A stretch of DNA of 47,500 nucleotides from Chromera velia (lineage: Eukaryota; Sar; Chromeraceae). This document shows positions 10,601 to 47,221 of the stretch, one piece after another. The translations under genes were made by a program, and so were the position numbers. The number at the start of each line of letters is the position of its first letter. Position 1 is the first letter of the stretch. Location of the stretch: contig JAHBMJ010002173.1 in assembly GCA_018398765.1 (NCBI GenBank), forward strand, positions 1 to 47,500, read 5' to 3'. The notes beneath the pieces are model-generated. The model was not told where the DNA came from, did not search any database, and was given only the letters and a program-made list of their open reading frames with translations.

Positions 10601-13600
10601 AAATCAACATGTGACCGCACAAAGCAACCCACATAAATTCAAATCGATCGATGTATCCCCTTTCTGCCCATATAAATTCAAATCGATCGATGTATCCCCT
10701 TTCTGCCCACAGAGAGAGAGAGAGAGAGAGAGAGAACCCTTTCTGGTCACTCTCGATCTGGAGCACCGCACCTCAAATTCTTGGAGTGCAGTCTCCTTCA
10801 TGTCTCTATTTTTTGATCCTATACTCTTCTACAATCATGTCTGCAGGAACTCGAACTCTTCCGCCCTTTCTTCCCCCGTCACAGCAACATCCCCCTCCCC
10901 CTCTCCCCCCCTTGGGCCCTTCCTGCCCCCTCTACCTTCGGAATCTGAGACTGTCGCACAGACGCAGTCAGAGGAGATGAAGGGAAGAAGGACCACAGGA
11001 GGCTCCAGAGCTTCAACGAACCAAGTGAGGACGCCCAGAAGCCCAACGGCAGGGGCGCGAGCACGTCCTGCAAACAGGTGCGTTGGGGGGGGAGATATTC
11101 ACTCATCCTTCTTTGGTATGTGAGTCTTGATGTTGGTATATGCGAGTTCAAATTACTTTGCCACAACGCAGATTTTGACCGTTAGATTCCATGCAAGGAG
11201 GGACCCACCCACCCTCCCTCTCTACGCAAAAATGTCTTTGTGGGTACATGCAGGTGGAAGTGCTGCAACCGAGTGATGCATGCATGCATTTTCATAATTC
11301 ATTCTGTATGAAAATAAATACTCTACGCATGCATTTGTTTGTCTGTCTGTCTGTGTGTACATGCAGGTGGAAGTGCTGCAACCGAGTGCGAAAGAAGCTC
11401 CGCAAAGGCTACGTGTGTCTCCTGAGTGCGGTGCAGCTTTGGATGACGAACAGAAAATTCAGAGTGAGTCAGTCAGTCGAATTATTCAATTGACGCACGC
11501 GATTTACTCACGCAAAAGTTTCGTGCAGCTTTGGATGACAAACAGAAAATTCAGAGTGAGTCAGTCGAATTCATGCACATATATGGATTTCAGTGTGGTC
11601 AGCTCAAAACAGATGTGCGGAAGAAAAGAATTCGAAACCCTGTGAAGTGAGTGAAGCCTGCATGTGGATGGATGACAAAATTTGAAAGCAAGAAAAGAAT
11701 GAGAGTACGTTGTCCTTGCACGAAGCTTTCATTTTGACAGTTGGTTGAAAAACCCTTTTTTTGTTTTTTGAGGACCTCTTTGTCAAGACTATCGAAGAGG
11801 CGACAGGCACTCTTGCAGTCAGCCAAAACGAGTAAACCCATAATTGAGGGTCTTCTCATACCCCTGCAGGATGATTTGCTCCCTCCCAAAGATGCACATT
11901 TGTGTGTTTGTTTGTGTCCACTTCATTTGAGTCTGTTTGTCTCTCTGCAGAGATGGGCGTACCTGATTCTGGCTGGCGCCATCTACCTCTGCACCCTCTC
12001 TCTGGTGCGCAATCAGATGACACTGGGAGACGTCATCTTGCTCCTCGTCCTGCAGGTCAGCCGACGCTCTCTAATGGATTCACATGCCTGTCTTTCGATG
12101 CAACTCACGCTCATGTAACTGCGTGCAGCTCGATGTAGGCCTGCATATGAATGAAGTTTGTTGCGCATCTGCTGATTTCCTCTTTCTGTACGCAGGAAGA
12201 TGCACTCGGATATTTGTCGTGATGGCTGTCTTTGCCTCCCTTCAGGTGGTTGGCATGCTTATGTGCATCAACGGCATGCGGGGCGACTCCCGTCTCGGCC
12301 GCGCCTTCAATGTGGCCATCTGTGTGTTCTCTGTCACCGCCATCCTCATCATCCTCGCAGCCTCCACCCTCGCCTCTCTGTCAGTCGGGAGTTGGGAGTG
12401 AAACAAATATCCAAAAATATCAAAAATATTCAAAAATACTCAAAAATATTCAAAAATGTCCTCATCATCCTCGCAGCCTCCACCCTCGCCTCTCTGTGAG
12501 TCATAGGGAAGATGAGGTATTGTAGGGACACACTGGAGGAAGCAAAAGGTTATGAATACAATCGTCAAGGAGAAGACGACACTGACTGCTCATTTCGTTT
12601 CTCCCGGGTACCTTGTGTGGGTAGTGCACAGGACATGGACTGGGAGTCCCGACCGGTGTGCTGCGGGAGGTCGTTGTGATGCATGGGGCCTGCCATTCCT
12701 CCCTCATGCACTTATTCCTTCCTTCCTTCCTTCCTTCCTTCCTTCCTTTCTTTCTTTCTTTCTTTCTTTCTTCCTTGCTTCTTTCCTTTCTTTCTTCCTT
12801 CCATGATTGCATGCCTCCCTCCCTCCCTCCATTTGATTCAAGTCTCTCTCTCTCTCTGCATGCAGAGAGGACCCAGGCGCCCCCCTTGTGGGAGGGTAGA
12901 GAGAGAATCCCAAAAAATATCAAAAATATCCCAAAATATCCAAAATAAATTCATTGAATTCTCTGCAGAGAGGACCCAGGCGCCCCCCTTGTGGGAGGGT
13001 AGAGAGAGAATCCCAAAAAATATCAAAAATATCCCAAAATATCCAAAATAAATTCATTGAATTCTCTGCAGAGAGGACCCAGGCGCCCCCCTTGTGGGAG
13101 GGTACAGAGAGAATCCTCTGGCCGAACCAGAGCACCCCCCAGTCTCCACAGGGTCTCCTGCAGCTGGGGAGAAAGAGACGGGAAGGGGGTCCGAGTCCAG
13201 AGACATCAGCCCCCCCTCCAGCAGCAGTACAACCGAGGAAGGGGGAAAGGGGACCATCAAGGACGGTACAGGAGGAACGGAAGGGGAAGGAGAGGGAGAA
13301 GGAGAGGGGGAAGAAACAAAGCCGTCAGATGAGATTCCCCAGAATGTTACCGTGCAGGTATGTGAGTGGCTGCCTGGGTGTTCCGCAATTTTTGTTTTCA
13401 GATCCTTCTCGGTCGGAGTTCCCATGCAACTTTACTCCGCACCTCCATGAGTGACTGTAAGACAAGTCTTGGCTCTCCATCGTGTTTGATTTGGATGTTC
13501 TTGTAATTCATCGCGAAAGCTGTATTCACCCTGTTGCTGCATGATGATTGAAGGGTTGCGAATACCTGATTCGATTTTGTTGCCCAACCACTTTTGGCGC

Positions 13601-16600
13601 GTTCCGTTTTCTGTTCCTTCTTCTGTATCCCCAGAGACCCGTCGGTCAGAATTGTATTCCAAGATTTATGCTGACGAATTTGGCATAAAACTGATTTTGC
13701 GTCGCGTTTGTGCTCTCGGAAGGTTTCCCTTTTGTGTCTCTGCACCCCTACGTATCCGTCCTCTGTCGTGCAGAGGTACCTCCGAGGCTCTGGAGGGACG
13801 TCAGGGGTGCCACAGAGCCCTGGAGATGCAATAGGGGTGCCCCAGACTGCACCGTCTTCTCTACCCCCCATGCCCCTTTTGTTCCTCTCGGACGTCATCG
13901 ACTACCTTGCGCGTCCTCTCGCGCGTTCCCTCTCCGGGTTGGTCGAGCCTCTCCGAGTTGTCTTGAGAGAAGCCGGGAGTGACCCTGACGAGAACCCTTT
14001 GGCAGTTGGTGACTTTGACCTGGAGGGGTGGGAGTGGGAGGAGGGGGGTTTCTCTGTGAGTGGACAGGGCGAGGAGAATATTGGAGGGCTTCTGGGGGAG
14101 GGAGAAAAGACTGCTGTAGGAGAGCAATCGCGAGAACAGAAGGCAAGGGAGGACATCGTGAAAGCCCGAAAGTTTAGACAGGGGGGGCATCAGCTCTGTC
14201 AACTGCGGTGGGGGTACCTGTCGGGACTGAACTTTCTCGATTTGGGATGGGTGAGTGAGCTTAATTCGTTCTCTGCATGTTTTGGAAGATGCAAATATGT
14301 CAGTCACGACAGCACTCTTAATTTCTTTTTGCTGTCTTGTGATTGCATACCTGGTCTTCTACAATCTCTCCATTGCATTGATCCTTTGGCATGCAGAATG
14401 AAATTTGTCTCTGGTTCGATCGAATATTCGAGAAAAAAGAAAAAAGACGAATTGAAGGAAGAAAGCCGTCTGGCAGTCAATGCCGCTCACGAATTTCTCA
14501 AAGCTGAAGCATGCATGCGAGGTGCAGGAGAACGGCATGACTCTCATGTACGGCAGGCAGTCGTGAAAAAAGACGTCCATCTCTCCACCGATGCAAAAAT
14601 GACTTCCCACTGCATGCCGTCTGCTTGTTGCAGCTTGCGTACACAAGTTACAACCGTGACGCGCTGATTACGGACATGACTGAAGTTTACTTCGGAAAAG
14701 TGCTGGACGACAGCTTCGATCCAGAGAAACATCCAAAGACGCCATTCACACCGTCAGTCTGTATGTTTATATGTATGTATATGTATGTATGTATATATGG
14801 ACGACAGCTTCGATCCAGAGAAACATCCAAAGACGCCATTCACACTGTTAGTCAGACAGCAAGTCAGACACACAAGGGAAGTACGTGGCCAGCTGCCTGA
14901 TCCTCCTTGTCTTGCTCTGAAAATAATGTCCTAAGCAGCTCTGCACATTCATGCAAACTTAATTGCACAATTCTGGTAGGCTTCTTCCGCGTTAGTCTTC
15001 TTCCATCATCATGTCGAGCTGCGTTGAACGTGTGTGCGATTGTGTGTCTGTGCATACGTGTGTGTGTGTGTGTGTGTGTGTGTGTTTATGTGTAGGTTTG
15101 AGGTCCTCTCTGTGGAACCCCAACCTCTTCTAGGCCGAGCGCTGGTTGTGGACTTTCCTTTGGAGAATGTCCTCGTGATTGCCTACAGAGGCACGCAGGT
15201 GGGTCTGTATGCATATGTGTATACATGTGTGTGTGTGTATGTGTGTGTGTGAATGTATGCATGTGTATGTATGAATATATGTGTATGTGTTGTGGACTTT
15301 CCTCTGGAGAATGTCCTCGTGATTGCCTACAGAGGCACGCAGGTGGGTCTGTATGCATATGTGTATACATGTGTGTGTGTGTGTGTGTGTATGTATGTGT
15401 ATGTATGAATATATGTGTATGTGTTGTGGACTTTCCTCTGGAGAATGTCCTTGTGATTGCCTACAGAGGCACGCAGGTAGGTTTGCAACTTCCTTCTTCT
15501 TCTGTATGTATAGGCATGGGGACAGCTGACTTCTGTCAGGCTTGAAAAACGCAGGCGTGCTTGTGTTGTTTTTCACCCAGCTTCCTCTCTTCCTCTTCTC
15601 GCTCCAGACCTTTCCACTCACAGTTCTTTTCCCCTGCGTGCGTCAATCATGTGCCTTCCTTCCACAAGGTGACAGAGAACATGCAGCGCGTGGGCATACT
15701 CTCACATATGTGCGTGGGTGTCCGACTAAGCGCTTGCAGGTCGCTGCAGAGGCCATTGCAGATCTGGATGTCTGGAGTGCGGCCTTCATCGTTCAGACAA
15801 TCAGCAGGTGGGTGAGTGCCTTGATGTCGTGAATTGTGTCCAGGCAGATGAACCGTCACGTTTTTAGAGGAAGTGTGTGAGACTTTGTGCAGCACATATC
15901 TTTGTCGGGGTCCCCTGTGAGAGAAATCAAGCCCACTTTCCACAAACCAAGACACTGCATATGTATTGCAGTCGAGAGAATTCAGACCGCTTTCCTTCCT
16001 TCCGGTCTGTCTGCATGTGCAGGTACTTCTTGCCGATTTTGGCCTGGCTGCCCCCCGAGCTGGTGCCCAACATGCTGTGGGCCATTACTCAGAGCAATGA
16101 GGTACTGCGGGTTCGGTTCGGTTGGGTTGGGCTGGGTTGAGGGAATGCCTGGGTTTGGACGGAATGGGAAAGAAAAAACGATTCATAAAGTTTCTTTTTT
16201 CTCTCTACCTCTTGAGGGAGCCGGCAAGATGCAGCGCGAACAAGAATGAGAAACGTCTCAATTGTACGCGTACCGTCTCTCTTTGTGTGTGATTGATTGC
16301 AAGGAGTGTCCATGTTCTGTCTATGACTGACTGATTGCTTGCTTGATTGACTGATTGCTTGCTTGCTTGATTGATTGCTTGATTGCTTGATTGATTGATT
16401 GATTGATTGCTTGCTTGATTGATTGCTTGATTGCTTGATTGATTGATTGATGTTTTGGATATGTTTTTGGATATTTGATTGATTGATTACTGTCAACAGG
16501 ACGACCCTGTCCGTGAGATGATCCGTGAGAGAACAATTTTTTTTTTTTGGATATTTTTGAGTATTTTGGATTTTTTTTTGGATATTTGATTGATTGATTA

Positions 16601-17207
16601 CTGTCAACAGGACGACCCAGTCCGTGAGATGATCCAGCGACACCTCGAGAGTCTCTCGTACTTCGAGAGGGCGTACGCAGAGGTTTGTCGTTTGATTCTT
16701 CTCCTTCCTACCTTCCTTCCTTCCTACCTTCCTTCCTTTCTTCCTTCCTTCTTGGATCAATAAAAAATTTCCCTGCTCCTTCTCTGCGATGGCTACCCTG
16801 CTTTGGTTGATTTAAATTACCGGATGACGAATGGTGCGATTGGTGATCTCGAAATTTGATTTGGTGTCTGTTCTTGTTCTCTAATCGACTTATTCTTTCA
16901 GCTGCTGCTGGGCATCGTTGTGCACATGAGTAACTCGATATGAGATCCTTCGTTGAATGGGGTACCAGCTAGGACAACGAAATTGCGTGACCGACCGAAT
17001 AGAAATCCTTGGCCTCATGATTGTCCAGAAGCTGTTCATTGGACAATTGATTCCTTGTGTGCATGGGCGTGCGTGCGTATTTTAATGGAATCTCTGCAGC
17101 GACAGATTCTTCTGGTGGGACACTCCATGGGCGGCGCTGTGGCAACGATTGTGGGTGCCAAGACGTCTCTTCCTGCAATCACGATCTCGGCACCCGGAGT
17201 GGTCAGC

Positions 17208-17238
<31 letters not shown>

Positions 17239-17263
17239 TTGACAGACAGATTGACAGACAGAA

Positions 17264-17296
<33 letters not shown>

Positions 17297-18655
17297 GGAC
17301 TGCACGAGTGGAATGAACAACGCGAGTGAGTGCGAATTAAAGGGACGGAGATGATACGTACTCTCTTTTTTATTTCTTTACTTACTTACTTTCTTTCTTT
17401 CTTTCTGTTTTTCTGTGTGAATGTTGAATTGAATTCGCTCCTTGGGCCGAGAATTAAATTCCAATTTCATGGCCCTCTCACTGTCTGCCCAGCGTCTCTG
17501 CATAGAGAAACAGATTCTCAATTCACAATGCAGTCAATCAGCCAATCTGTTCATTCACCCTTCCCTTTCCTTTCCCTTGCTTCCAGTTGATGACGAGGAA
17601 GAGTGCAGAGAGGGACTGTTGGGTTTTTTGAATATTTTTGGATATTTTCGGATACTTTTGGATGTTTTTTGGAAAGACGTTCCCTTGTTGCAGTTGATGA
17701 CGAGGAAGAGATTCGGCGTCGACGAGGGGAGAGTGCAGAGAGGGACGCTCTCCGTTTTTGCAATGGGGGACCCTGTGCCGACGGTGGGCTGTTTGGTTTT
17801 TTGAATATTTGTGGATATGTTTGGATAGTTTTGGAGATTTTCGGATATTTTCGGATATTTTTTGGAAAGACCTTTGCAATGGGGGACCCTGTGCCGACGG
17901 TGGGCTGTTGGATTCGGGGTAGGAGGGGCTGCTTGTGTGTCTTTGTGTGTGTGTCTGTTTGTTGTTGGATTGGCGTCTGTCTCTTTACCGAACTGTCTGA
18001 CTATCCCTGCTTCGATCAGTCTGTCTGTGCATTCTCAATGATTGATGCCGTGGGCTCCCATGAATTGACATTGGGACCTTCTGTCTGGATCCTTCGTTGT
18101 TGAATATTTTTGAATATTTTGTGGACATTTTTTTGGATGCCGTGTGCTCCCATGAATTGACATTGGGACCTTCTGTATGGCATGCATGAGATGCAGGCGG
18201 ACATCAAGAGCGGGTTGATAGGGGACCTCGGATGCTCCTCCAAAAGCCCGAAGACCTGCCACATGGCCATCCACGTCCTCTGTGACCTCTTTTGCACTGG
18301 GGGGTACGATAGAAGGGGAATGTGGTGGAAAGCGTCAGTCAGTCAGTCAGTCAGTCTTTGTTTACTGCAACAGCTTTTCTGAGCTGACCGGACGAGAAAT
18401 CGAAATGCACAGTTGTAATTCGAAAGCAAACTTGTTTGACGCCCGCGTTCATTTTGCTGTGGTGAGCTGGACACGATCACGTGCTTTCAGAAGTGTCAAA
18501 ACGAATCCCAACGGTTTCTCCCTTTGCGTTCGTGCAGGTGCTGGCACACTGCAAAGCAGAAAAAGTGGCCGGATGCCAACCAGGGCAGGTGTCAGTGGTC
18601 GAAGATGAAGACCCTCGAGGACGCGAGGGAGGCAGCATCACTGCCCTTTGAGTGA
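4204..18655 (+). CDS. Polytopic membrane protein with C-terminal class-3 (diacylglycerol-lipase-like) serine lipase
   Basis: This gene has at least 25 exons. The order is: N-terminal membrane part (4204 to ~7557), cytosolic low-complexity part (8008-11463), second membrane part (11951-12379), linker (13072-14752) and alpha/beta-hydrolase part (15096-18655). The nucleophile elbow is GHSMG (Ser codon 17124-17126). The probable acid is Asp of GDPVP (17769-17771) and the probable His is in TCHM (18260-18262), inside a Cys-rich motif resembling the CHSxxRT..C...CG tail of some protist class-3 lipases. The architecture resembles animal sn-1 diacylglycerol lipases, which cleave membrane diacylglycerol, but there are more membrane helices than their usual four. 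The substrate is inferred. The start is the first ATG of a 58-codon exon ending at a clean GTAAGG donor; the stop is TGA at 18653-18655. Phases agree at most junctions; gaps remain at 6904-7179, 14250-14634, 16682-17100 and 17201-18197. Confidence 0.82.
4911..5010. repeat. (GT)n-(CT)n-(GT)n microsatellite in intron 2 of the lipase gene
   Basis: About 100 bp of GT, CT and again GT dinucleotides runs directly into the TGTGCAG acceptor at 5011-5016, so it doubles as the polypyrimidine region of that intron. Confidence 0.92.
7562..7682. repeat. (CT)n/(GT)n compound microsatellite
   Basis: Alternating CT and GT runs begin directly after the donor at 7558. They occupy the 5' part of the intron between the exons at 7536 and 8008. 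Confidence 0.9.
8008..11463 (+). CDS. Lipase gene: cytosolic, acidic low-complexity exons
   Basis: Exons read as 8008-8238, 8450-8894, 9183-9854 (alternative end 9884), 10139-10262, 10847-11077 and 11367-11463; all phases agree. The first exon starts with a basic amphipathic stretch (FKRQLQILNAQRLLLDTY). The next two encode long Glu/Ser/Arg-rich disordered sequence with poly-Glu runs and many Ser-Pro and Arg-x-x-Ser sites. The exon at 10139 has a basic amphipathic segment (RFMEWLRKTIRRNERD) and then an acidic tail. The exon at 11367 is strongly basic (WKCCNRVRKKLRKG), fitting the cytosolic side of the helix that follows. Two donors, GTAAGG at 9855 and GTACGT at 9885, are compatible with the same phase and may be alternatives. 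Confidence 0.75.
10349..10592. repeat. 49-bp tandem repeat, five copies, in an intron of the lipase gene
   Basis: A unit of about 49 bp starting GATTCTCTTTTCCGGAAGC is repeated five times with few substitutions. The unit length is not a multiple of three, so the same peptide appears in shifting frames. This long open run is a composition effect, not a protein. It lies between exons 10139-10262 and 10847-11077. Confidence 0.93.
10633..10711. repeat. Duplicated ~38-bp segment
   Basis: Two adjacent copies beginning ATAAATTCAAATCGATCGA, at about 10633-10670 and 10672-10710, are followed by a short (AG)n run. The position is intronic. Confidence 0.92.
11244..11388. repeat. Class A hairpin element flanked by a 32-bp duplicated acceptor plus exon start
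   Basis: The 32-bp segment GTACATGCAG plus the first 22 bases of the next exon occurs at 11244-11275 and 11357-11388. Only the second copy continues into the real exon (11367-11463). Between them lie GCATGCAT repeats and a hairpin with 9-bp arms, ATTTTCATA at 11288-11296 and TATGAAAAT at 11308-11316. The first copy is a decoy acceptor with a truncated exon start. Confidence 0.85.
11430..11572. repeat. Duplicated exon 3' edge with donor (lipase gene)
   Basis: The last ~34 bases of exon 11367-11463 and its donor (through GAGTCAGTC) are repeated at about 11524-11570, preceded by a new GTGCAG. The second copy has both an acceptor-like and a donor-like signal, so it could be spliced as a small extra exon. 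Confidence 0.82.
11951..12379 (+). CDS. Lipase gene: second membrane segment
   Basis: Exons 11951-12055 and 12246-12379. The first encodes RWAYLILAGAIYLCTLSLV, a short basic-acidic linker, and DVILLLVLQ. The second encodes VVGMLMCI, a hydrophilic loop, and a long hydrophobic helix (FNVAICVFSVTAILIILAAS). Two to three membrane passages follow the basic exon at 11367. Phases agree (0, 0, then 2). Confidence 0.78.
12343..12497. repeat. Class B spacer between 39-bp copies of an exon 3' edge
   Basis: The last 37 bases of exon 12246-12379 plus its donor GT occur at 12343-12381 and again at 12459-12497. The spacer between is a run of CAAAAATATT-like units, the complement of the GGATATTTT type seen elsewhere. 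Both copies end in a usable donor (GTCAGT and GTGAGT). Confidence 0.87.
12717..12800. repeat. (TTCC)n/(TTTC)n microsatellite
   Basis: Tetranucleotide pyrimidine runs in the intron before exon 13072. Confidence 0.9.
12862..13110. repeat. Three tandem copies of a ~103-bp unit: acceptor, exon start, class B spacer
   Basis: Each unit has TGCAG, then AGAGGACCCAGGCGCC and more exon sequence, then AAAATATC-type repeats and AATTCATTGAATTC before the next TGCAG. Exon copies start at about 12867, 12969 and 13072. Only the third runs on into the full exon 13072-13357. Each of the first two has a GGTAGAG donor-like site, so they could be spliced as 30-base mini-exons of ten codons. Confidence 0.9.
13072..14752 (+). 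CDS. Lipase gene: linker exons between membrane and catalytic parts
   Basis: Exons 13072-13357 and 13774-14250 agree in phase. The first is a Gly/Glu/Ser-rich disordered linker. The second contains a short amphipathic stretch (VIDYLARPLARSLSGLVEPL), an acidic segment, and a WGYLSGLNFLDLGW end. A further exon starts at about 14397 (NEICLWFDRIFEKKEK) but stops or needs a very short intron, so its 3' end is unresolved. Exon 14634-14752 encodes LAYTSYNRDALITDMTEVYF, typical of the region just before a class-3 lipase core. Confidence 0.68.
14706..14850. repeat. Duplicated exon 3' edge separated by a (GTAT)n spacer
   Basis: The last ~47 bases of exon 14634-14752 (GGACGACAGCTTCGATCCAG onwards) occur again at about 14798-14846. 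The copies are separated by ~45 bp of TATGTATG repeats. The second copy ends CACTGTTAG instead of CACCGTCAG. Confidence 0.87.
15059..15476. repeat. Three tandem copies of a lipase exon 3' edge in (TG)n-rich sequence
   Basis: About 53 bases of exon 15096-15198, encoding VVDFPLENVLVIAYRGTQ plus the donor, are repeated at about 15290-15342 and 15424-15476. They are embedded in TGTG/TATG repeats with periods of about 142 and 134 bp. Copies 2 and 3 keep a donor but have no AG directly upstream, so they look like pseudo-exons or decoy donors. Confidence 0.92.
15096..18655 (+). CDS. Lipase gene: catalytic exons
   Basis: Exons read: 15096-15198 (FEVLSVEPQPL...VLVIAYRGTQ, the conserved RGT strand), 15740-15807, 16023-16101, 16611-16682, a short exon from 16902 (LLLGIV), 17100-17201 (RQILLVGHSMGGAVATIVGAK, with the nucleophile Ser), 17694 to ~17790 (RGTLSVFAMGDPVPTVG, acid Asp), an exon ending near 18083 (IDAVGSHELTLG), 18197-18303 (GLIGDLGC...KTCHMAIHVLCDLF, probable His) and 18538-18655 (CWHTAKQKKWPDANQ to the TGA stop). 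Phases agree from 15096 to 16682, for 17100-17201, and from 18197 to the stop. The sections 16902-17100 and 17201-18197 are confused by duplicated exon edges and need transcript evidence. Confidence 0.8.
16325..16450. repeat. (TTGATTGCTTGC)-type tetranucleotide array
   Basis: Degenerate TTGA/TTGC tetranucleotide repeats directly upstream of the next exon duplication. Confidence 0.88.
16465..16635. repeat. Class B spacer and ~60-bp duplicated acceptor plus exon start
   Basis: The segment GGATATTTGATTGATTGATT, CTGTCAACAG and the first ~25 exon bases occurs at about 16465-16524 and 16576-16635. Between them lies a T-rich stretch with further GGATATTTTT units. Only the second copy continues into exon 16611-16682. 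Confidence 0.88.
17206..17298. repeat. (GACA)n microsatellite immediately after the catalytic-Ser exon
   Basis: About 90 bp of GACA repeats with a few TTGACA variants starts within a few bases of the donor at 17202. Confidence 0.93.
17587..17745. repeat. Duplicated exon 5' part with class B spacer; first copy internally deleted
   Basis: TTGATGACGAGGAAGAG followed by TGCAGAGAGGGAC at 17587-17616 is a shortened copy of 17694-17745. In the full copy about 23 additional bases lie between two GAG triplets. The spacer between the copies contains GGATATTTTCGGATACTTTT-type units. Confidence 0.82.
17757..17909. repeat. Duplicated GDPVP-coding exon edge with class B spacer
   Basis: A 37-bp segment beginning TTTGCAATGGGGGACCC occurs at 17757-17793 and again at about 17873-17909, with GGATATTTTCGGATATT units between. 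Both copies encode the GDPVPTVG acid motif. Only the first is joined directly to the upstream exon sequence. Confidence 0.88.
18044..18176. repeat. Duplicated IDAVGSHELTLG-coding segment with class B spacer
   Basis: A 41-bp segment starting GATGCCGTG is present at 18044-18084 and 18136-18176 with one mismatch, separated by GAATATTTTTGAATATTTTG-type sequence. Both copies are followed by GT. Confidence 0.88.
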
Positions 18656-24700: not shown

Positions 24701-26541
24701 ACACTTGTTTACTCTCCCACACCTCAGAGACATTAACAGACAGACACATGCACACCCACACATTGAGGGGACTGGATTCCCCTCCCTCCCGTTTTGTGTG
24801 CATTCATTTTCTGTATGTAAAAAGAATTCTGTATTGTGAAAATGAACAGATGCATGAACAGATGCACACCCACATTCGTGCGATTGGATTCCCCTCCCTC
24901 CCGTTTTGAGGGTCCACTGCTGAGAGGGCGGCGGCGAGGTCGAGCAGCCCCCACCCCTGTGCTGTGCAGACGCCCAGCGGCTCGGGGGGACGGTAGGCTG
25001 ACAGGGGTGCTGCAGGGGTGAGTGCGCTTGCTGTGCGCACCCCTGTGGTCCCCGCAAGCTGCACAGAATAGGCGTCTGGGCCTCTGCGGGGTGACATCGG
25101 GGGTGCTGGGGGGATTTGTACTGGGAGGAAGGCCAGAGGGGGGGTTTTGTCCTCTGCGTACTTGACGGTCTCCAGTTTAGAGGGAACTCGGAAGCCCTTG
25201 TCCTTCTGTTTGGGTTTCTGCTTGGCGACCCAAGAGGAGAAGGAGTGTGGGTTGTTGTCGGGGGGGGAGAAGAGAAGGTTGGACGGGGGGGAGACGAAGG
25301 GGGAGGTTTTGGGGGGGGGGTTGGGAGACGCGTTTGTGTAGGCAGGGAGACGGGAGATCGCAGAGGCATCGGGAGTGAGGAGGTATTTGCCCTCAAAGTC
25401 ATTCCTGCATGCAGGCACAAAGGGGGGAGGAAGAAGACATTGACGTATCCACGTAAACGCGGGTACAATGCAGAGAGACAAGGAGTCAGTTACGCAGGTA
25501 CAAAGAATACGTGTAATCGCAGGTACAATACAGAGAGACTAGGAAAGTCAGTTGCTGCGGTAAGAGCCGCCACCTGCATTGAGGATATAGGGTATGGGAG
25601 GTTAAATGCTTTGGATTTCGATATTTGAGGTTTTGCTTTGACCTGCCTCGATCTCTATCTCTCGCTGAGGAAATTTCCAGCCACGTGATCAAGTGATCAC
25701 ACAATGAATGAGCGATGTGGCCCTTTTACTTAATTTTCATACAGAAAAAAAAAAGGAAATTTCCAGCCACGTGATCAAGTGATCACACAATGAATGAGCG
25801 ATGTCGCCCTTTTACTTAATTTTCATACAGAAAAAAAAAAGGAAATTTCCAGCCACTTGATCAAGTGATCACACAATGAATGAGCGATGTGGCCCTTTTA
25901 CTTAATTTTCATACAGAAAAAGAAAAAAGGAAATTTCCAGCCACTTGATCAAGTAATCACATAATGAATGAGCGATGTGGCCCTAAACGAAAACTACACC
26001 AATTAAGCAGTCGTGCAATCAACATGCGTCAAGGACTGACTGTACGAAGAGCAATTGATTCGCGTCCATCTGTTCCGTCAGCGCTCTCAGCAGAACCTCA
26101 AACAGATTCGCGTCTCCCTGCACAGACAGACAGACAGACAAAAACATCAAAACACACGCAACCAATCAGGCATCCAGGGCCCACACACACCCCTACCCTT
26201 CCCCCACGCCAGCCATAGATGTACAAATATATGTACCCATAGAAATGAGGAAGGTTAAGCATATGGAGAAGAAAGGAGGTTAAGAGAGAGAGGCGGTGCG
26301 CGGGAGGAAGAGAACAAGGGGGACTGAGTCTCTTTTTCTACAAGAAAGAATATGCCCTCCACCCACCCCCATTCTCCCCTTCACATCCATACATCGGACT
26401 GGCTGACCCTGAGCACAGCCAGCTAGAACAAATACACACACACACACACATCCAAGAGACTGACCCTGAGCACAGCCAGATGGAGACTCGTGACGCCCCC
26501 GTCCGGTCCGTTCCACCTGTCTGCCTCCGAGTTCATGAACG
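21731..26541 (-). CDS. Ankyrin gene: 3' exons
   Basis: Exons read: 26541-26465, 26117-26046, 25404-24874, 24476-24297, 24058-24010, 23887-23736, 23188-23096, 22847 to ~22487 and 21963-21731. The exon 25404-24874 encodes a Pro/Ser-rich disordered stretch ending in LLDLAAALSAVDPQNGREG. A small exon with VAALTAATDFP at about 25594 may lie before it and would repair the phase. The exons 23188 and 22847 join in phase to give a clean ankyrin unit. The last exon could start at 21963 or at a second TGCAG near 21900. The stop is at 21731-21733. Confidence 0.68.
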
Positions 26542-31309: not shown

Positions 31310-32049
31310 GCGCATACTTACACTTATGGAGGGGATGGAGCTCATCGCGTCAGGTCACTTCTCGGTAAACAATGAAGAACTACGTGCAAAAAAAAAAAAA
31401 AAAAAAAAACCAATGAAGAAGAGATGTCAACAGCTAAGCGGATAGATGGATAGACGGGCTGGTACGAGGGTAGACGGACGCGGCATGCATTTACTTTCTG
31501 AAAAAGAATTCTGTATGAGAGTAAATGCGGGCTGCTACGAGAGTAGACGGACGCGGGAAGACGGACGGAATACAAAAGACGAAGACGGACACAAACAACC
31601 ACATACGTGGAGAAAGAAGAGAAAGACAAGTCAAGGTTGGAACAGAGGAGAAGGTGAGTAGTCCAATGGCACCACAACTCGTTGAGAAAGTCTATCCGTG
31701 TCTGTCTGCATTGGTGACACCTGAACACGCGTAATTCGCTTTTCTAGGCCCTTCTCACCGACCTGAGTGGAGTCCGTGCGAACACCTCCTCGTCCGTGCT
31801 GTAGAAGTTTGGGTCTGCTCCTGAGTGGAGGGCCGAGAGGACGCTGTGTAGATTGCCCTCGTGAAGGGCCAGGAAGAGGGACAGAGAGACGATAGAGGGG
31901 GGAGGGGGGGAGGGAGCGAAGGCGAACGGCACTTCCTTCTCGTACACTCTGGGAGAGTTGAACCATATGCGCCCCCCTCCTCCTACACTTCCTGCAAGCC
32001 CATCTGTCACGAATGCTCTCGCAGAGGGACCCTCTGTACCCGCGTTCAT
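21731..32049 (-). CDS. Multi-exon ankyrin-repeat protein
   Basis: About 19 exons are read on the minus strand. The proposed start (ATG at 32049) opens a first exon ending at 31763 that already contains an ankyrin unit (LALHEGNLHSVLSALHSGADPN). Later exons repeat the family hallmarks: DGWSALH, LLHTACE, SGLTPLHLACFG, WTPLHFAVWSGN, NTPLTLAVAKG, VTSLHLAVLR, RPVHVAANFGFGDLAQ and LLIDYGADP. Ankyrin stacks are protein-binding scaffolds; no catalytic domain is visible, so the partner and role are unknown. The C-terminal exon (21963-21731) ends in an acidic EYDDVVELLDDRR tail. Junction phases agree for most exons. They fail between 26046 and 25404 (a small exon near 25.6 kb may be missing), at 24010-23887, and at the last intron. 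The family call is firm; the exact protein is not. Confidence 0.8.
23462..23725. repeat. Compound (AAAC)n-(GAAA)n-(GACA)n-(GGAA)n microsatellite
   Basis: Over 200 bp of purine-rich tetranucleotide repeats in the intron between exons 23736 and 23188 of the minus gene, where it reads as a pyrimidine tract. Confidence 0.93.
24159..24300. repeat. ~42-bp tandem repeat, three full copies plus a partial, at an exon 3' edge
   Basis: The unit GATGGCATGCGTGCGTCAGA plus about 22 more bases is repeated three times between about 24172 and 24300, and a partial copy of its end lies just before. On the minus strand the first unit follows the donor of exon 24476-24297, and each unit repeats the GGTGGGTCTTGCTTG-like donor context. 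Confidence 0.88.
24774..24908. repeat. Class A hairpin element flanked by a 23-bp duplicated exon segment
   Basis: The 23-bp segment GGATTCCCCTCCCTCCCGTT plus TTG occurs at 24774-24796 and 24886-24908. Between them is a hairpin with arms TTCATTTTC (24803-24811) and GAAAATGAA (24838-24846) and the AAAAAGAATTCTGTAT core seen in other copies. In the minus gene the duplicated bases code DPQNGREGNP-type sequence near the end of exon 25404-24874. Confidence 0.87.
25461..25557. repeat. Duplicated ~35-bp segment
   Basis: GGTACAATGCAGAGAGACAA and following bases at about 25463-25494 recur at about 25523-25556 with several differences. The second copy abuts the possible small exon near 25.59 kb. Confidence 0.75.
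25669..25983. repeat. 86-88-bp tandem repeat, four copies, carrying a half class A motif
   Basis: Copies of a unit beginning GGAAATTTCCAGCCAC start at 25669, 25755, 25841 and 25929. Each unit contains the self-complementary GTGATCAC, and the first three end with ATTTTCATACAGAAAA and an A run. The ATTTTCATACA core is the same as in the class A hairpins but the opposite arm is missing. The array is intronic in the ankyrin gene. Confidence 0.92.
26403..26482. repeat. Duplicated donor-side exon edge around an (AC)n run
   Basis: CTGACCCTGAGCACAGCCAG occurs at 26404-26423 and 26460-26479. On the minus strand the inner copy is the real end of exon 26541-26465 (LAVLR plus the GTCAG donor). The other copy follows about 56 bp into the intron, beyond an (AC)n tract. 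Confidence 0.87.
26907..32049 (-). CDS. Ankyrin gene: 5' exons
   Basis: Exons read, in transcript order: 32049-31763, 31011-30909, 30691-30560, 30084-29746, 29320-29242, 28769-28659, 28046-27992, 27772-27638, 27338-27254 and 26988-26907. Every junction in this run agrees in phase. The exon 30084-29746 is longer and not ankyrin-like (VASPKMQQGGALFTSFALRY, then Arg/Gly-rich), probably a loop inserted in the repeat stack. The exon 29320-29242 (HICALRGKMKSAGVLLREGA) resumes an ankyrin helix pair. The exon 28769-28659 is a hydrophilic insertion. Confidence 0.78.
27344..27404. repeat. (CA)n microsatellite next to an exon acceptor
   Basis: On the minus strand this (TG)n tract runs into the GAGCAG acceptor of exon 27338-27254. 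A second (CA)n tract lies at about 27150-27173. Confidence 0.9.
28497..28682. repeat. Duplicated exon 3' edge flanking an AT-rich inverted repeat
   Basis: CAGAGGCCCTCCCAGAAAAGCCC at about 28531-28549, preceded by CCAA repeats, recurs with one mismatch at about 28660-28681. Between the copies, AATTAATTCACTTT and AAAGTGAATTAATT form an inverted repeat, with extra AATTGCGAAAAAA units. The inner copy is the coding end of exon 28769-28659. This is the same arrangement as class A but with a different hairpin sequence. Confidence 0.82.
29031..29197. repeat. Duplicated ~35-bp segment flanking a poly-A tract with an assembly gap
   Basis: GCTGACCCCATGGAGACGCT and following bases occur at about 29031-29065 and 29161-29195 with one mismatch. 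Between them is a short unique stretch and then a run of more than 50 A interrupted by three undetermined bases at about 29133-29135. The true length of the tract is unknown. Confidence 0.87.
29660..29742. repeat. (CTGA)n-(ATGA)n microsatellite after the 30084-29746 exon
   Basis: Tetranucleotide repeats begin within a few bases of the donor of the minus-strand exon ending at 29746. Confidence 0.92.
30070..30197. repeat. Class A hairpin element flanked by a 15-bp duplicated acceptor
   Basis: CGCCACCTGCACCAC occurs at 30079-30093 and 30183-30197. Between the copies an 18-bp arm TGGATTCATTTTGATACA (30097-30114) pairs, with one mismatch, with TGTATGAAAATGAATCCA (30153-30170). On the minus strand each flank is GTGGTGCAG|GTGGCG, the acceptor and first bases of exon 30084-29746, so two acceptors lie about 104 bp apart. 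Confidence 0.9.
30292..30585. repeat. Four tandem copies of an exon 3' edge with donor, ~82-bp period
   Basis: CTACCTCGCAGGCCGTGTGC (minus strand: GCACACGGCCTGCGAG|GTAG) recurs four times between about 30295 and 30580. The copies are separated by ATATCTAAAAACATCCAGAC, a class B-like spacer. The copy nearest 30570 is the true end of exon 30691-30560 (LLHTACE). The other three form a ladder of donor copies down the intron. Confidence 0.92.
31260..31313. repeat. (CA)n-(CG)n tract with Z-DNA potential
   Basis: About 34 bp of CA repeats is followed directly by about 18 bp of CG repeats, in intron 1 of the ankyrin gene. Alternating purine-pyrimidine runs of this kind are the classical Z-DNA-forming sequence. 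Confidence 0.92.
31459..31556. repeat. Class A hairpin element flanked by a 26-bp direct repeat, in an intron
   Basis: GCTGGTACGAGGGTAGACGG plus six bases at 31459-31484 recurs with two differences at 31531-31556. The hairpin arms are GCATTTACTTTC (31487-31498) and GAGAGTAAATGC (31518-31529), one mismatch, with the AAAAAGAATTCTGTATGA core between. The flanks do not overlap a recognised exon, so the element is not restricted to exon edges. Confidence 0.87.
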
Positions 32050-35546: not shown

Positions 35547-35580
<34 letters not shown>

Positions 35581-36111: not shown

Positions 36112-36145
<34 letters not shown>

Positions 36146-37012: not shown

Positions 37013-37088
<76 letters not shown>

Positions 37089-40000
37089 CGTGCGTGCGTG
37101 CGTGAGAGAGAAAGACGTACACAAACACGCCACATACAAAAGCCACCTCACCCACTCACTCCTTGTGCCTGACTGACCTCATGTCTCTTGAGCATCATGT
37201 GTCCCCTCTCGATGACCTGGTTCTTGTCGAACACCACCACGCCCCCCCCCCCGCTCGCGAGACCCTCCTCTCCGGGCGCCGCCGCCCCTACCCCGTCAGT
37301 CACGGGCCGGGATCTTTGGTTTAACAGCGAGTGCATGAACACCTGCACGTTGCCCTTGCCCCCCTCCAAGGGCTCTGCGGAACCTCTGCGGGGCCCTCTG
37401 TTGGTCTTTGCAGTGGCCATCTTCTGCGAATAGTCCAACTCTCTGGGTACGTTCAAATGCCCCGCCTTTCGCTCTTTGGGGCCCGGAAAGACCTTCACAT
37501 GAAGGAGTGTGGGGTCGGTAGCTGAGGTGCACTTGGTGCCTCCATGGTGGCCTGCGAGACGGGTGGAGTGGGCTTCGTCTCGCGATGCGTGTTTTTCCCA
37601 GTGGGCGCGGTGTTTTAATCGTGCGGTAGTTGCCACCATGGAATCTCTTCTGTTCTTCAAATGTTCTGCGCCCGTAGCCCCTGATGCCACTATATCGTTC
37701 AGCTCTTCCATGAAGGTTGGCTCTCCGTGGATGGATATGACGGAGGAACGAATGCGCGCATTTTCCTGGGCTTCTTCGCTTCCCTCTTTGCCATCATAAA
37801 GGTCAATTTTCTCTTGCTCTGTGTTTCGGCGAAGGGGGTGATTGCCTTCTGGCTTCCCGGCTCCTTCTTCCTGTCTGAGGGCCTGGATGTGTTTGAGGAC
37901 CTTTGAGGGTAACTCGGGTGAGAGGGCGGCACCGTCTGCGAGCGCACACGCGGCAGTGATCGGATCGGGGGGGGGTATGCCCAACATCCCCGCGAGCTCC
38001 TGAGCCTTCACTCTTCCCTGAAACTCACCCCCCCGCCCGATGCCCGTATGCGTCGGTTTCACGAGATCTGGCGACAGACGGCTCATAAAATACTGGTCGT
38101 CTTCCGAGATCTGATTCTCTGCCCCTACATGCGCGTTCAAAATCCTAGTCCTCAGATGCCCCCTTTTGGAGGGGTGCAGGGTCTCTGGCCGTCCTTTGCC
38201 CTCCTCCGTCACCACCGCCTCCCTGGGGGGCCACCGAAGGACTTGGCCGACGTCGGGTTGGCCTCTGATGGGGGATTCGTCTAGCATCCCGGCACGTGCG
38301 GCGGCGGAACTTGTCGGGAGGGGCCGGGTCTTCTGCTTCTGGAGGCCCTGGTGACCCAGAGGGCCTGCGTGCATCCATCCATGCATCCATTGATTTTCAT
38401 ACATAATTCTTTTTCACACAAAGAGAGAAAGAGAAAGAGAGAGAGAGAGAGGCCCTGGTGACCCAGAGGGCCTGCGTGCATCCATCCATCCATGCATCCA
38501 TTGATTTTCATACACAATTCTTTTTCACACAAAGAGAGAAAGAGAAAGAGAGAGAGAGAGGCCCTGGTGACCCAGAGGGCCTGCGTGCATCCATCCATGC
38601 ATCCATTGATTTTCATACACAATTCTTTTTCACACAAACAGAGAAAGAGAAAGAGAGAGAGAGAGGCCCTGGTGACCCAGAGGGCCTGCGTGCATCCATC
38701 CATGCATCCATTGATTTTCATACACAATTCTTTTTCACACAAAGAGAGAAAGAGAAAGAGAGAGAGAGAGGCCCTGATGACCGAGAGGGCCTGCATCCAT
38801 CCATGGGTGTGGACCGGAAAGAAAGAAGGTGATCAGATGAACAGACATAAGCGAGTAGAGAGCAAGAAGGGGCCAGAAGTTTCTGTGTACAAGGAGGTTT
38901 GAGGGGCATCAGACAAAGAATTGGGGAAGTAATTGAGGACCAAGACAGAACACTTTACGATACTTGTGTTTTAACTGCACGCAGGGAAGTTTTTAGAGCC
39001 AGGCAGAGTTCACCCTGACGTGACATTCAGATTTCTATTTTCAAGAAATACACGTATGAGTGTGGGAATGCCGACTGACCAGCCAACCGAGTGCCGTCTC
39101 TGTGAATGGAGAAGAAAGAAGAAAGAAAGAAAAAAAAAACCACATTTATTGTCGAGTTTTGTCAACTGACCTGCCAACCGAGTGCCGTCTCTGTGGATGG
39201 AGAAGTCCGCATCAGCCCCGACTGCCGGGGCCGTCTCCGGAGAGGCCCCCTGCTCCCTTGTCCGGGGCCCTCCCGGCAGAGACGGGCCCACGTTCCCAAG
39301 ACCAATGTCCCTCAGATCGCATTCCAGAACGTCAGGAAACACTCGGGACACCAGACCTTCATTCTCCTCAAAGGGGGTGAGGCCCGTGAGTCCAGTCAGG
39401 CCGGGGCCCTCCACCCGTCTCGAGGGCGAGGGGGCCTCTATCAAGCCCTGGACGGGTTTTTTGACCTTCGTGACTACCGTCGTGGTCTCTGTGCCTGTGC
39501 CGGGGCCCTGCTGGTCACTCCCCGGAAAGATTTGGGGGGTTGATGGAGGCAGAAGGGGCGAGAGGGTGGCCACACTGCGACGGGCTCCTGTAGCCGCAGG
39601 GGACAGGCACACGGAGGCCAACCGGGTCCGGGACATGGGGGGCCCAGTAGTCCCAAAGGACCCCGGCGGCAGGGGCAGAGAGGCGGTCCCAGAGGGAGCA
39701 GGGGCGTCAAATCTGAGCACGGAGTTTCCATCAGATTCAGGGGAAGGAGGGACGACCTTCCCCCCCGTCTCCACCCACCGTCGCCTTGTCCCTCCCGCCA
39801 ACCCATCAGGAGGAGACGGAATGAGAAGAGTACTTGAGTCAGCAGGAGGAACAGGAAGGCTGCTTCCAGCCTCGTCGTAGTCAATCCTGCTGGCACTCAG
39901 TCTGCCCGACCCGTACTGTTCTATCGCTACCCGACCTCCCAATTCTGAGATGATCGAAGGCCTTCCGCTTCTGTGGGCAGGGCGCGTGGCCACAGACCCC

Positions 40001-43000
40001 GTCAACCCCTGTGGCGGTGGTTTGATGGCCGTGGAGACCGACAACCCCTGTGCTTCATGAATATCATGCCCAGATGTATATTGCACAGCTTCCACTTTCT
40101 CCTCTTCCTCTAGCACCTTCCCCACCAACCCGTCTCCCTCTCCACTTCCTCCCTTCTTCACTCCCCCCTCACCAAACTGCAACGAAACAGACGGATCACT
40201 CGCAACCGGCACCAGTGACCGTCTCCCCCCCCCGAGCGACCCCCGTGTGCCCGGATCTGTATACTGTCTCCTCTGCTGCTGCCCTGCTGCTGTGCTGTCC
40301 TGACTGAGCGCGTGTCTGTGCACTGTCGGCACCAGAGACAGAGTACTGCCCCCTGGCCGAGACACACGCCCCCGACCCGCGAGGTCCTCACTCGCAGACC
40401 TCCTCAGAGAAGGCCCCGACGCCGCCGACTGATGCGGACCCTCCTCTCTCTGATCAGAGGCACCGGGGGTGTCCCCTGTCTCAGGAGACGGGGGCAGCTC
40501 ACGGACGTGGCTGACCTGCAAACAAAGAAAAACAATCAGGCAACCAAGAAATGGTGCATGCATTCATTTTCATACGCTCCCGGAAAAAGGATTCTGTATG
40601 AAAATGAAGGCTGACCTGCACACAAAAAAGAAGAATCAGCCTACCAGGAAACAAAAAGAAATAAAATCAGGAAAGATTTTCGTTGCAATCACGAGGCGAC
40701 ACAAAAAGACTCCAAAGTCTTTCCTTAACACGTGCGTATTTTTCTAACTGATTTTGTGAATTTCTCATTCTTGCGTTGCTCAGCCCGGCTCTCTTTGTTT
40801 CTCTCCCCTTCCCTCCCTTTCCCCCCTACCTGCAAACGGTTACTGAAATTTCTTCCCACAAAAGTTCCGGAAGGCGCAGATTGTCGACGGTGCACTTCCA
40901 CCACCTTGCCCCCTGACGCTCTCCTTTCCGATCGCCGTCTCTCCCGCTGTATACCCGTGCCGATGGGTGCAGGGGGGGAGACGGCGACTGTCGGAGGAGA
41001 CGGAGACAGAGACGGCCGTCTCGTTCCTCCTGTCCCTGTCCCTGTCGCTTGAGGATCTGACTGCAAATCCTTCGACATCTGATCCAGGAAGTTCAAAGCA
41101 CACCCGAGGATATCCTCCATCGCCTCTCTGTACTCACTCAACATTCCCTCCCTCTCCCTCTTCTGCTGCTGTTGTTGGTGTTTGGAAGGGACTGCAGGGA
41201 CCCTCGACTCGTCCAAAGACTCCAACCCAGGGCCTCCCCCGGTCTCAGGGATGGTCTCCGTCTCTCCCTCACCTGGACTACTCAAAGGGTCCCCTGATCC
41301 CACTGGGGGGGGCGTGGAGACGGCTGCTTCGACTTCCGTCTCCTCTGCCTCTGCCGTCTCCTCCTGAGGGTCGGGAGGCAGCGGCTGCACAAGAGCCGGG
41401 GCCGAGGCCCGTCGGCCCAACAAGACGTCAAGCAGAGCGCGGGATCTCTCGCGAAGAGCCCGCACTCCCACTCCTCCTCCCCTTCCTGCTCCTCTAAATC
41501 CACTTCTCTCAACATCATCATTCCTTACTCTGCCGCCCGTCTCTTCCCGACTTGTCTGCCTCGTCTGTCGAGATCCTCTTGGTGCCGTCTCCTCTATTTC
41601 TCTGTTGGCTGTCAGGTGTCCGGCGTCTGTCCTCCCCCTTCCCCTGTCTCCATAAAACGTGGAGGCACCGACCGACTCTGAGGATGAGTCAACGTGTCGG
41701 AGCGCAAAACGAGAGAAAAACCGCCCAGGAGCCCCTCTGGTTGTCGTGCTGGCAACAGAGAAAGACGCAGACGAAGAACGACGAAGCGGCCGACGCCCCC
41801 GCCCCTCTGTCTGCCCCCCTCCTCCCCCTTGTGTCCCACTAACTCTTCTACCGATTGACTGCACTAGTTGGAACACCCCCCTCCCCCTCAGCGGCTTTCC
41901 TCTGGTCCCTTCCAACGTCGTGTCCGTCGTGTCTCCCTCCGTAATTCCAAATCCGTCCGTCTCCTTTACATACTCCCTCTCTCTGCTGTACCGTTGGTTA
42001 GGGGGAAGCTGCCGAAAGACCATCCCCCCCTCCATGCAGAAGGACAAAGGGGAGGACGGCTTTCCCCCCGGACAACAGGGGTAGTAATTTGACCCCCCTG
42101 GGCCTGCACACACCGTCTGGGTTTCCTCCAGCACCTCTACCCCCCCTCCAGCCGCCTGTGTGGGTGAGGGACAGCTGAGTGGAATCGGCAGAGTGCTTGC
42201 AGAGCCCCCCCCGTGCTTCCTTCTGATAGAACCGAAGCGCAGGACGGCAGAGGGGGCAGACAGAGAGGGGTCGCCTTGAGAGAAGGTGAGCACTTCCGAG
42301 CTATTCATTGGAGCCTCCGGATTCACCATGCCACTCGCACTGACAGTCACAGGCGCTCTGGTGACGATTTGTTGAGTGGGAGACGGGACGGGGTCACCAG
42401 GGCACCAGAGAGGCGGAGGGGGGGAAGAGCAGAACGTTCTGCGTCTATTGGGAGGCAAAACCGCCTTGGAGACGGGGCCTCTGGAAGTGGAGGTTAATGA
42501 AGGACCCCCACAGACGCTGTTGGCGCCTGTGCCCCAACACTGAGGGGCTCTGACTAGGTCTACGTGCCTGGAGTCTGGAAAGGGTGCTAACTGAGCGTCC
42601 ATGATAATACTGTCAGAAGTCACCCCTGGCTTCTCCCCCTCGCCTGCTTGTGTTGTTGAGTTGATGTGAACCTGCAGGTCCGTCTCCCGTCCCCTGACAG
42701 GGACTGTTGTCAGGGAGGACAAGGGGGGAGGCGTGCTTTGGGGTTTGGAGGGAGAGGGCGCTGCTGCTGCTGGGGGGGGGGCTTCTACAGGACTGACGGC
42801 CTCTTCCGTTCGTGTGGCGTTTGGAGGAAGGACGGGGGGCCCTGAGGGGGGGGTGACGCCGGTTGTAGGACCGTCAGCAGCGACTCTTCTGACTTCTATA
42901 GTGGTGTCGTGTGCTTGGAGGGGTTGGGGTTTGAGGGGAGTGGGATTTGTGCCGTCTCCTTCTTTCTTCATGACTGGTGCGTGGCTTTGCGGGGCTTCCT

Positions 43001-45900: not shown

Positions 45901-46270
45901 TGGACCAGAGAGACACTAAAGAGAAAAAAGAGCCAACCCACGCGGTTTTCGTAAGTGCCCCACAAGTTGTTCACATGCACACTGCACATTTCGACAGCCA
46001 TCCTCCGTCTACCCCTGGCACTGAGAGTTCATGGAACGCGTTTCTTAATTACGTGTCTTGCTGCCTCTTGCATGCTTAATTTCCCTCTTATTAAAGACGA
46101 GTCTGAGCTCACAGCCCGCAGAAGAAGGTGACGTGAATCGATTCTCCCACAGCAAACCTATTAAGGCACTCGCAGAAGGAGGCTCGGGCACTTCACCACA
46201 CCTACTACATACCGCACTGTCTGCCATTGTCACTGTCTCGAAGAAGCTTGTGGAGGGACTGTCAGTCTGA
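45882..46270 (+). CDS. Unknown protein, two internal or 3' exons
   Basis: Exon 45882-45950 (SDWVERLDQRDTKEKKEP) has a TTTAG acceptor and a GTAAGT donor. It joins in phase to an exon at 46097 (TSLSSQPAEEGDVNRFSH... LLHTALSAIVTVSKKLVEG), which ends at TGA 46268-46270. I do not recognise the family; the second exon ends in a hydrophobic-basic helix. The stop is followed two codons later, in the same frame, by the ATG of the next protein-like exon. The 46270 stop may therefore separate two genes, or be a sequence error or recoded codon in one gene. Confidence 0.5.
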
Positions 46271-46276
46271 GAAGAA

Positions 46277-47221
46277 ATGCAGGCCAACCATTTCGATTTC
46301 GCTGCCCAGATTATTGGACAGAGCTATGCCGATCAGGCAGCCCAGGTCTGTCAGCTCGGCCCGTCGACAGAACGGGTCAGACTGAGCCGTCTCTTTGTGT
46401 CTCCTGTCCGTGTCGTGTGCATGTGAGCATGTATACATATGAAGGTTGGCCAACCCACACAGAGAGGCTACAGGGCATACCGAGCAGGTCTGGTCTCATT
46501 CCCTCACACACATTTCGTTCTAACGCGCTGCCCCCCCTTCTCTCGCTCTCTTCCCTTCCAGATTTCTGGGTACTGCACAGAACCCGCGCTGTTCGTACAG
46601 ATGGATCAGCTTTTCACCTGAATATGTGCACACGTGTGTGCATGTGTGGTTGCACAACGGGTGGATGGATGCAGGCACGGACCTCAAGAGCGAAGAAAGT
46701 GACCTGGTCAGAAAGAGCCTCTGCTTTTTTCTTCCCGTCTCCTCAAGGATCTTTCAGCGCTTCGCTGTATGGACACACGCCGGCCTCAGACCGCCTCACC
46801 TAGCTCCCTTGATCCCTGTGTGCCTGTTTGTCTGCTTGCCTTTCCGCCTGCGTTTGTGTGTACCCTGCCCCGTCAGAAAAGAAATGAAAAGGGGGGAGGG
46901 GAAGAAGAAAAGGTCAAACAAGGATCTCCTTTCTTTCTCGGTGTGGGTGTCTCTGTTCAAAGAAAAGAAGAAAGGGCCAAGGATCCCCTTTCTCGGTGTG
47001 TCTCTGTTGACCTGCGCGCAGTCTTCTGACGCAAAGGCGAATCCCCGAGGAGCCGTGGACGGAAGCAGAGGTGCATGCATTTATTTTCATACATTTATTT
47101 CTGTATGCAGTCTTCTGTATGAAAATAAATGCAGTCTTCTGACGCAAAGGCGAATCCCCGAGGAGCCGTGGACGGAAGCAGAGGTGGAGACTTTTCTTCA
47201 TGAGCTCGCGGCAATGGACAG
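46277..47221 (+). CDS. Possible SANT/Myb-like protein, 5' exons (partial)
   Basis: Exon 46277-46345 (MQANHFDFAAQIIGQSYADQ) ends at CAG|GTCTGT. Exon 46562 to ~46594 (ISGYCTEPALF) joins in phase, or runs to a stop at 46621. Further exons between 46.6 and 47.0 kb are unclear (a candidate starts DLSALRCMDTRRP near 46750). The exon 47135-47221, with its duplicated start at 47022, encodes RRIPEEPWTEAEVETFLHEL. The spacing of Trp, acidic residues and Phe/Leu resembles the first helix of a SANT/Myb DNA- or histone-binding domain. This would suggest a nuclear role. Only about 29 residues of the domain are seen, and the gene continues toward the window end. The family call is tentative. Confidence 0.42.
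47018..47186. repeat. Class A hairpin element with perfect 18-bp arms between 56-bp direct repeats
   Basis: The 56-bp segment starting GCAGTCTTCTGACGCAAAGG is identical at 47018-47073 and 47131-47186. Between them TGCATTTATTTTCATACA (47076-47093) is exactly complementary to TGTATGAAAATAAATGCA (47116-47133) around a 22-base loop. The inserted piece begins GTGCATG right after GCAGAG and ends AAATGCAG, so it has GT...AG ends and is placed like an intron. This is the best-preserved class A copy. Confidence 0.95.

Follow-up and report, generated by a model that had tools for sequence, protein, structure and literature searches.

Short inverted-arm inserts between variable-length host duplications, often at splice acceptors, in Chromera velia: candidate scars of staggered breaks

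Introduction

Patch-mediated breaks are reportedly the subject of work in rice. The main text on Daphnia neointrons describes direct repeats of 4–12 bp shared by neointron and exon and ascribes them to staggered double-strand breaks (PMC4202315). Where breaks were made by paired nicks with overhangs of 43 or 46 nt, tandem duplications resulted, according to the main texts (PMC8355091; PMC5730883). Introners, as their main texts present them, have target duplications of 3–9 bp (PMC9860276), and those of Amoebophrya have direct repeats of 3–5 nt (PMC7789003). For the Tm1 foldback elements, duplications of 8–10 bp are given in the main text for 45 of 53 cases, mostly 9 bp (PMC3169594).

Here we describe short inserts from Chromera velia that are flanked on both sides by copies of host DNA in direct orientation. 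They were noticed in a window of 47,500 nucleotides (GenBank assembly GCA_018398765.1, contig JAHBMJ010002173.1, positions 1 to 47,500), which is the whole stretch of DNA analysed at the outset. A preliminary description of this window proposed one design at six loci and two arrays: an A/T-rich hairpin inserted at duplicated exon edges. We followed it through the 177.8-Mb assembly (4040 contigs).

Elements in the window and across the genome

When read and measured, all six loci and both arrays were present, within a few bases of where they had been placed:

11239 to 11388, plus strand: element with duplication; copies 11239–11275 and 11352–11388 (36/37 bp identical), insert 11276–11351
24773 to 24908, no strand assigned: degenerate element; 24-bp copies 24773–24796 and 24885–24908
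25668 to 25984, plus strand: tandem array, 3.7 units of 86 bp, each of host sequence plus half element
30079 to 30197, no strand assigned: element with right arm intact and left arm altered; copies 30079–30093 and 30183–30197 (15/15)
31455 to 31556, no strand assigned: element with degenerate arms; 29-bp copies 31455–31483 and 31528–31556 (27/29)
38342 to 38804, plus strand: tandem array, 4.4 units of 105 bp, each of host sequence plus half element
40509 to 40651, minus strand: element; 43-bp copies 40509–40551 and 40609–40651 (36/43)
47018 to 47186, plus strand: element; perfect copies 47018–47073 and 47131–47186 (56/56 bp), insert 47074–47130

At 11239–11388 the copies comprise an acceptor TGCAG and the start of an exon, and the insert holds both arms together with a 9-nt piece of host sequence from upstream. 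Besides both arms, the insert at 47074–47130 contains 11 nt copied from the host flank (GCAGTCTTCTG). Read on the minus strand, the copies at 40509–40651 run from a pyrimidine tract through TTTGCAG or GTGCAG into 7 nt that by eye may be exon. Paired arms had been claimed for every locus, which was too broad: the elements first placed at 24774 and 31459 are degenerate and have neither TTTTCATA nor TATGAAAA, and at 30079 the right arm alone is intact. Across the window, TTTTCATA occurs 11 times (mean 0.44, maximum 2 in 50 Markov-1 simulations) and TATGAAAA five times (mean 0.64, maximum 3 in 50 such simulations). The window also contains a 44-bp duplication starting with GTGCAG at 11431–11566, whose 48-bp insert lacks a hairpin, and two tandem arrays that lack the element, at 10347–10591 (49-bp units) and 30293–30560 (units of about 82 bp). 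Ten of its many open reading frames of at least 110 codons gave no Pfam match at E ≤ 0.01, and no known RNA family reached the gathering threshold in the window.

In the assembly, the two-arm pattern TTTTCATACA-N5-30-TGTATGAAAA matched 98 times per strand against 0 in the reversed control, with 49 places listed; the strands give equal counts because the pattern is its own reverse complement. The paired-arm hairpin is above chance and more widespread than first described. The 23-base arm GCATTTATTTTCATACAGAATTC, with at most two mismatches, matched 502 + 575 times (1077) against 0 in the control, and the 17-base arm CATTTATTTTCATACAG, with at most three, 2275 + 2185 times (4460) against 306 + 301 (607) in the reversed control. 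The genome therefore contains thousands of arms, and the proposal of a single dispersed design is borne out genome-wide. These totals do not give the number of elements, since arms per element vary and arrays inflate the counts. Among viral contigs the arm word matched one, which we took as chance. A satellite-like run on contig C3687 (11288–14611) has 24 exact arms in 119-bp steps with one gap and presumably repeats a single host + element unit. At another locus, L023, five 113-bp host + element units stand in tandem.

Duplications, arms and junctions

Flanking duplications were scored in two sets of loci. The first was picked by palindrome and took in any further arms inside those loci; a duplication score of at least 30 was reached in 82 of 86 arm clusters, compared with 104 of 2000 random positions. 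To lessen bias, the second set comprised 60 loci picked for one exact arm alone, drawn in sequence from the listed matches of the GCATTTATTTTCATACAGAATTC and CATTTATTTTCATACAG searches rather than at random from the genome. Of these, 58 scored at least 24 (227 of 3000 random positions) and 55 scored at least 30 (130 of 3000). The two misses were L075, where a duplication visible by eye was hidden by the microsatellite mask, and L090, an ambiguous case. Direct host copies around the hairpin, as first proposed, are accordingly the rule at one-arm loci, and the 58 of 60 indicate that duplication and insert arise together.

The 86 clusters, in which arrays are counted repeatedly, included 73 with a placeable duplication, of which 62 were left after arrays were collapsed and 54 were tested; with 56 of the 60 one-arm loci, these make up 110 scored elements. 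Their duplications measure 13–74 bp (quartiles 29, 40 and 49) and their inserts 21–105 bp (median 61). The two copies are a median of 95% identical, and 23 of the 110 pairs are perfect. Flank length had been called too variable for a fixed target-site duplication, and the range of 13–74 bp agrees and rules out a transposon of that kind; the fixed short duplication of terminal-inverted-repeat (TIR) transposons and MITEs was not seen. What surrounds the insert is a direct duplication of variable length, as in staggered-break tandem duplication with filler. No paralogous empty site with a single host copy was found among the fetched loci, where cross-locus matches were arms or simple repeats.

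From the host side inward, the arm reads (TGCA)TGCATTTATTTTCATACAGAATTC(TTTTT), and its conserved part is the outer portion. Of 56 one-arm elements, 34 carry the outer arm word at each end, where shuffling gives 8% per end, and 9 have the TTTCATAC core on both sides; among 54 palindrome-selected elements, 30 carry the outer word at each end. The hairpin that was first described is often incomplete, and the full palindrome is a minority form; the neat hairpins first noticed are one extreme of a range. Inner ends are ragged, with 17 nt the most frequent spacing of successive units (16 of 44). After GAATTC-T the commonest continuation is TTTTC (26 of 69 by our count), then another unit or the turn. 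Variants common to both arms of one element numbered 15, compared with 8.7 after shuffling (73 of 5000 shuffles as high), and the two arms are neither wholly independent nor simply co-inherited.

Microhomology between the host and the outer end of the consensus averaged 1.97 nt at 93 filler-free junctions, compared with 0.54 nt after shuffling (0 of 2000 as high), and was raised separately at acceptor-side (23), exon-side (18) and remaining (52) junctions. Filler of 1–11 nt separates host from consensus at 67 of 160 junctions. A stretch of at least 9 nt of an element's own flank recurs inside it in the same orientation in 17 of 108 elements (null mean 1.07, maximum 4), and in inverted orientation in two of 108 (null mean 1.23). 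Eleven of the 17 are arrays, copies of a neighbouring element or microsatellites; six are clean by eye, namely the inserts starting at 47074 and 11276 in the window and loci L026, L086, L088 and L095. We take these copied pieces as signs that synthesis switched template to the flanking host DNA. Joins with microhomology or templated filler are again what staggered-break duplication leaves.

Splice acceptors and introns

The duplicated host sequence had been described in most cases as a splice site plus exon, and this stood for acceptors but not for donors. The 3' splice-site word TGCAG is present in 61 of 110 duplications against 13–16% in controls; the 13% is slightly low because skipped draws were kept in the denominator, and a separate control gave 16%. 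The first 54 duplications alone gave 57% against 16%. The donor word GTRAGN was found in 8 of 110 against 7.4% (first set, 7% against 12%), and donor enrichment is absent. Under a looser acceptor rule the value was 57% against 38% in controls, which lies within the control replicates (maximum 59%).

Counted by position, with a CTGCAG scoring in both orientations, TGCAG occurred 34 times near the junction (4.8 expected) and 34 times inside the duplication (12.8 expected). The signal was weaker for TGCAT, TGCAC and TGCAA, both near the junction (14, 6 and 4 against 5.2, 3.0 and 2.7) and inside (22, 16 and 7 against 13.8, 8.1 and 7.3). The pyrimidine fraction upstream was 0.62 for interior TGCAG against 0.52 at other TGCAG (P = 0.004), and 0.59 against 0.52 for TGCAG near the junction (P = 0.024). 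Frames after the acceptor averaged 62.6 codons against 58.1 at control TGCAG (maximum 80; 35 of 62 had enough sequence). The acceptor preference may be part microhomology, since the TGCA at the end of the element matches TGCAG.

Ten exon-side reads from other loci were compared with Pfam. L035 matched DUF1295 (E = 2.3e-7) and L026 matched Ostalpha (E = 2.5e-5; 24.2 bits, just under the cut-off of 24.9); L067 with SUFBD (0.026) and L065 with Bubble (0.06) were both weak, and six reads had no match. At L035 and L026 the coding copy is the one next to the downstream exon, and it continues into the domain. In the coding frame, the upstream side of L026 runs into a stop once 4 codons have been read, and that of L035 is pyrimidine-rich (12 of 15), yet open for 36 codons. 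At both loci the upstream side looks like pre-existing intron, hence intron lengthening, and the elements more widely appear to lengthen existing introns. Joined empty-site frames, inspected by eye, gave no clear case of a new intron made by AG|GT duplication. A separate locus, L058 (C307:18600–19200), has a tandem 71-bp unit that by eye resembles a small WD40-like exon with acceptor and donor.

Other inserts also lie between direct host copies in the window. A second AT-rich kind is found at 12343–12502, 16453–16635, 17584–17710, 17757–17909 and 18044–18176, with units like GGATATTTTT, and two of these inserts share GTTTTTTGAATATTT...TTTTTTGGAAAGAC. Across the genome the GGATATTTTT filler, with at most two mismatches, matched five times against 0 in the control. 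At 29032–29203, a 44-bp duplication surrounds a long poly-A filler with a run of N. The duplications at these six places suggest that breakage followed by duplication may extend beyond the inverted-arm element here. TGCAG is present in 6 of 41 duplications around other fillers, compared with 15 of 28 around the inverted-arm element, so the acceptor link is not shown for other fillers.

Candidate mechanisms

Rather than a TIR transposon, we favour staggered breaks whose two ends are both extended on a template after priming by microhomology, and on balance consider this probable. Each element would be the scar of one staggered double-strand break, in which two nicks on opposite strands, about 13–74 nt apart, would leave complementary overhangs. 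Both broken 3' ends would then be extended on a common short template, RNA or DNA, by a reverse transcriptase or a theta-like polymerase, each gaining a tail 5'-TGCATGCATTTATTTTCATACAGAATTC(TTTTT)-3'. Microhomology of a few bases with the outer TGCA would prime the extension. The tails could pair, GAATTC being self-complementary, or be joined via filler, and filling in the overhangs would give host copy, inward tail, outward tail and host copy, in that order. Acceptors would be preferred targets partly through the match of TGCAG to the end that primes. An insertion with a duplicated acceptor may be tolerated, since splicing can still use the copy on the exon side.

One such event of breakage, two-ended tailing and joining would yield the variable duplications, the same outer end twice, the ragged inner ends, the microhomology and the host pieces together. 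With the core on both sides in only 9 of 56 one-arm elements, tail pairing cannot be the sole route of joining. Against tailing are the 67 of 160 junctions with 1–11 nt of filler, and the sharing of arm variants (15 against 8.7) also fits unit copying. The result of the looser acceptor rule and the lack of an empty site among the fetched loci weigh against it too. No gene for the template and no enzyme for the tailing was found; a search with the telomerase RNA-binding domain gave no match, but neither did its controls, which makes it uninformative. A GIY-YIG endonuclease profile has one match (E = 4.6e-4; contig C3977, 28926–29153), within a 552-codon open frame. More tentatively, and in our estimate improbably, a reverse transcriptase of telomerase- or Penelope-like type could add the tails to the two ends of the staggered break from a dedicated short template RNA, predicted to contain AAAAAGAAUUCUGUAUGAAAAUAAAUGCA. 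Translocation between the template's two A runs would then give the 17-nt iteration, and the process would be a two-ended kind of target-primed reverse transcription, with a preference for 3' splice sites and a steady growth of introns as its result.

The main rival is a DNA element, foldback or MITE-like, that is bounded by terminal inverted repeats TGCATTTATTTTCATACAG and mobilized by an enzyme (transposase or integrase) cutting its target at variable spacing. Conserved inverted outer ends around a variable interior, dispersal as thousands of arms and variants partly common to the two arms of an element all fit it. We nevertheless think it unlikely: the duplications of 13–74 bp differ from the short fixed ones of known TIR families, mostly 9 bp in the main text on Tm1 (PMC3169594), and junction microhomology or filler, host flank copied inside the element and the 17-nt iteration also speak against it, as does the lack of an autonomous copy in the fetched loci. 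Theta-like polymerase repair, copying filler from existing genomic copies and dispensing with a dedicated template, is less likely again. Microhomology and same-strand host pieces are its expected traces, and other AT-rich fillers lie within similar duplications in the window, but by itself it accounts neither for one oriented sequence, outer end first, at both ends nor for the 17-nt iteration.

Three further readings have little to recommend them. Variable target duplications are usual with target priming, which would suit a tiny SINE-like RNA that retrotransposes by ordinary one-sided target priming and leaves long target duplications of variable length. Class I elements also outnumber class II in Chromera, by the main text of the genome paper (PMC4501334). 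Such an element should be oriented and one-sided, however, and the same outer end stands inverted on both sides in 34 of 56, so that we regard this reading as very improbable. Hairpin DNA already in place might instead have duplicated its flanks by slippage or unequal crossing-over, with no insertion; this finds some footing in the tandem host + element arrays of the window and L023. In most scored elements, however, one insert is flanked by two copies; the duplication is present at 58 of 60 one-arm loci, and the flanks of different elements are unrelated, which leaves slippage with a very slight chance. An assembly artefact is the most remote of all: the Chromera assembly described in the genome paper's main text was made from short reads (PMC4501334) and is possibly not the one analysed here, but the copies differ from each other (median identity 95%, 23 of 110 perfect) and one design recurs at more than 100 loci.

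Comparison with known systems

The likeness to introners drawn in the preliminary description holds in that both are short and dispersed and have inverted and direct repeats where exon meets intron (main texts of PMC9860276 and PMC7789003). It stops there: introners are themselves introns, whereas the present element adjoins a duplicated acceptor, gave no clear new intron and has duplications of 13–74 bp (110 elements) instead of 3–9 bp. The word "Chromera" is absent from the main text of one introner paper (PMC9860276). Foldback elements such as the Mutator-type Tm1 likewise have composite inverted repeats that vary in length and contain iterated motifs, but the Tm1 main text gives mostly 9-bp target duplications and members that encode a transposase (PMC3169594).

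Other comparable systems are built on staggered breaks. As in the main-text account of Daphnia, an insert lies between direct repeats near exon edges, and Daphnia introns later grow by repeated breaks; the repeats are 13–74 bp here and 4–12 bp in Daphnia, introns are lengthened here and new there, and a recurring insert family is present here and has no counterpart in that account (PMC4202315). Paired-nick duplications are of the size seen here, but in the main texts they come from experimental breaks in mammalian cells and have no recurring insert (PMC8355091; PMC5730883).

The preliminary description knew of no family with this sequence, and a literature search of main texts likewise gave no description; "hairpin" is absent from the main text of the Chromera genome paper (PMC4501334). 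The same main texts contain no family that combines a recurring short insert with target duplications of 13–74 bp. The element looks like a recurring mode of break patching and a route of intron growth. If so, its loci would form a large natural archive of the tailing and joining of staggered breaks, 3' splice sites would be tied to break repair, and the lengthening of introns through break repair could be tested directly by comparing strains.
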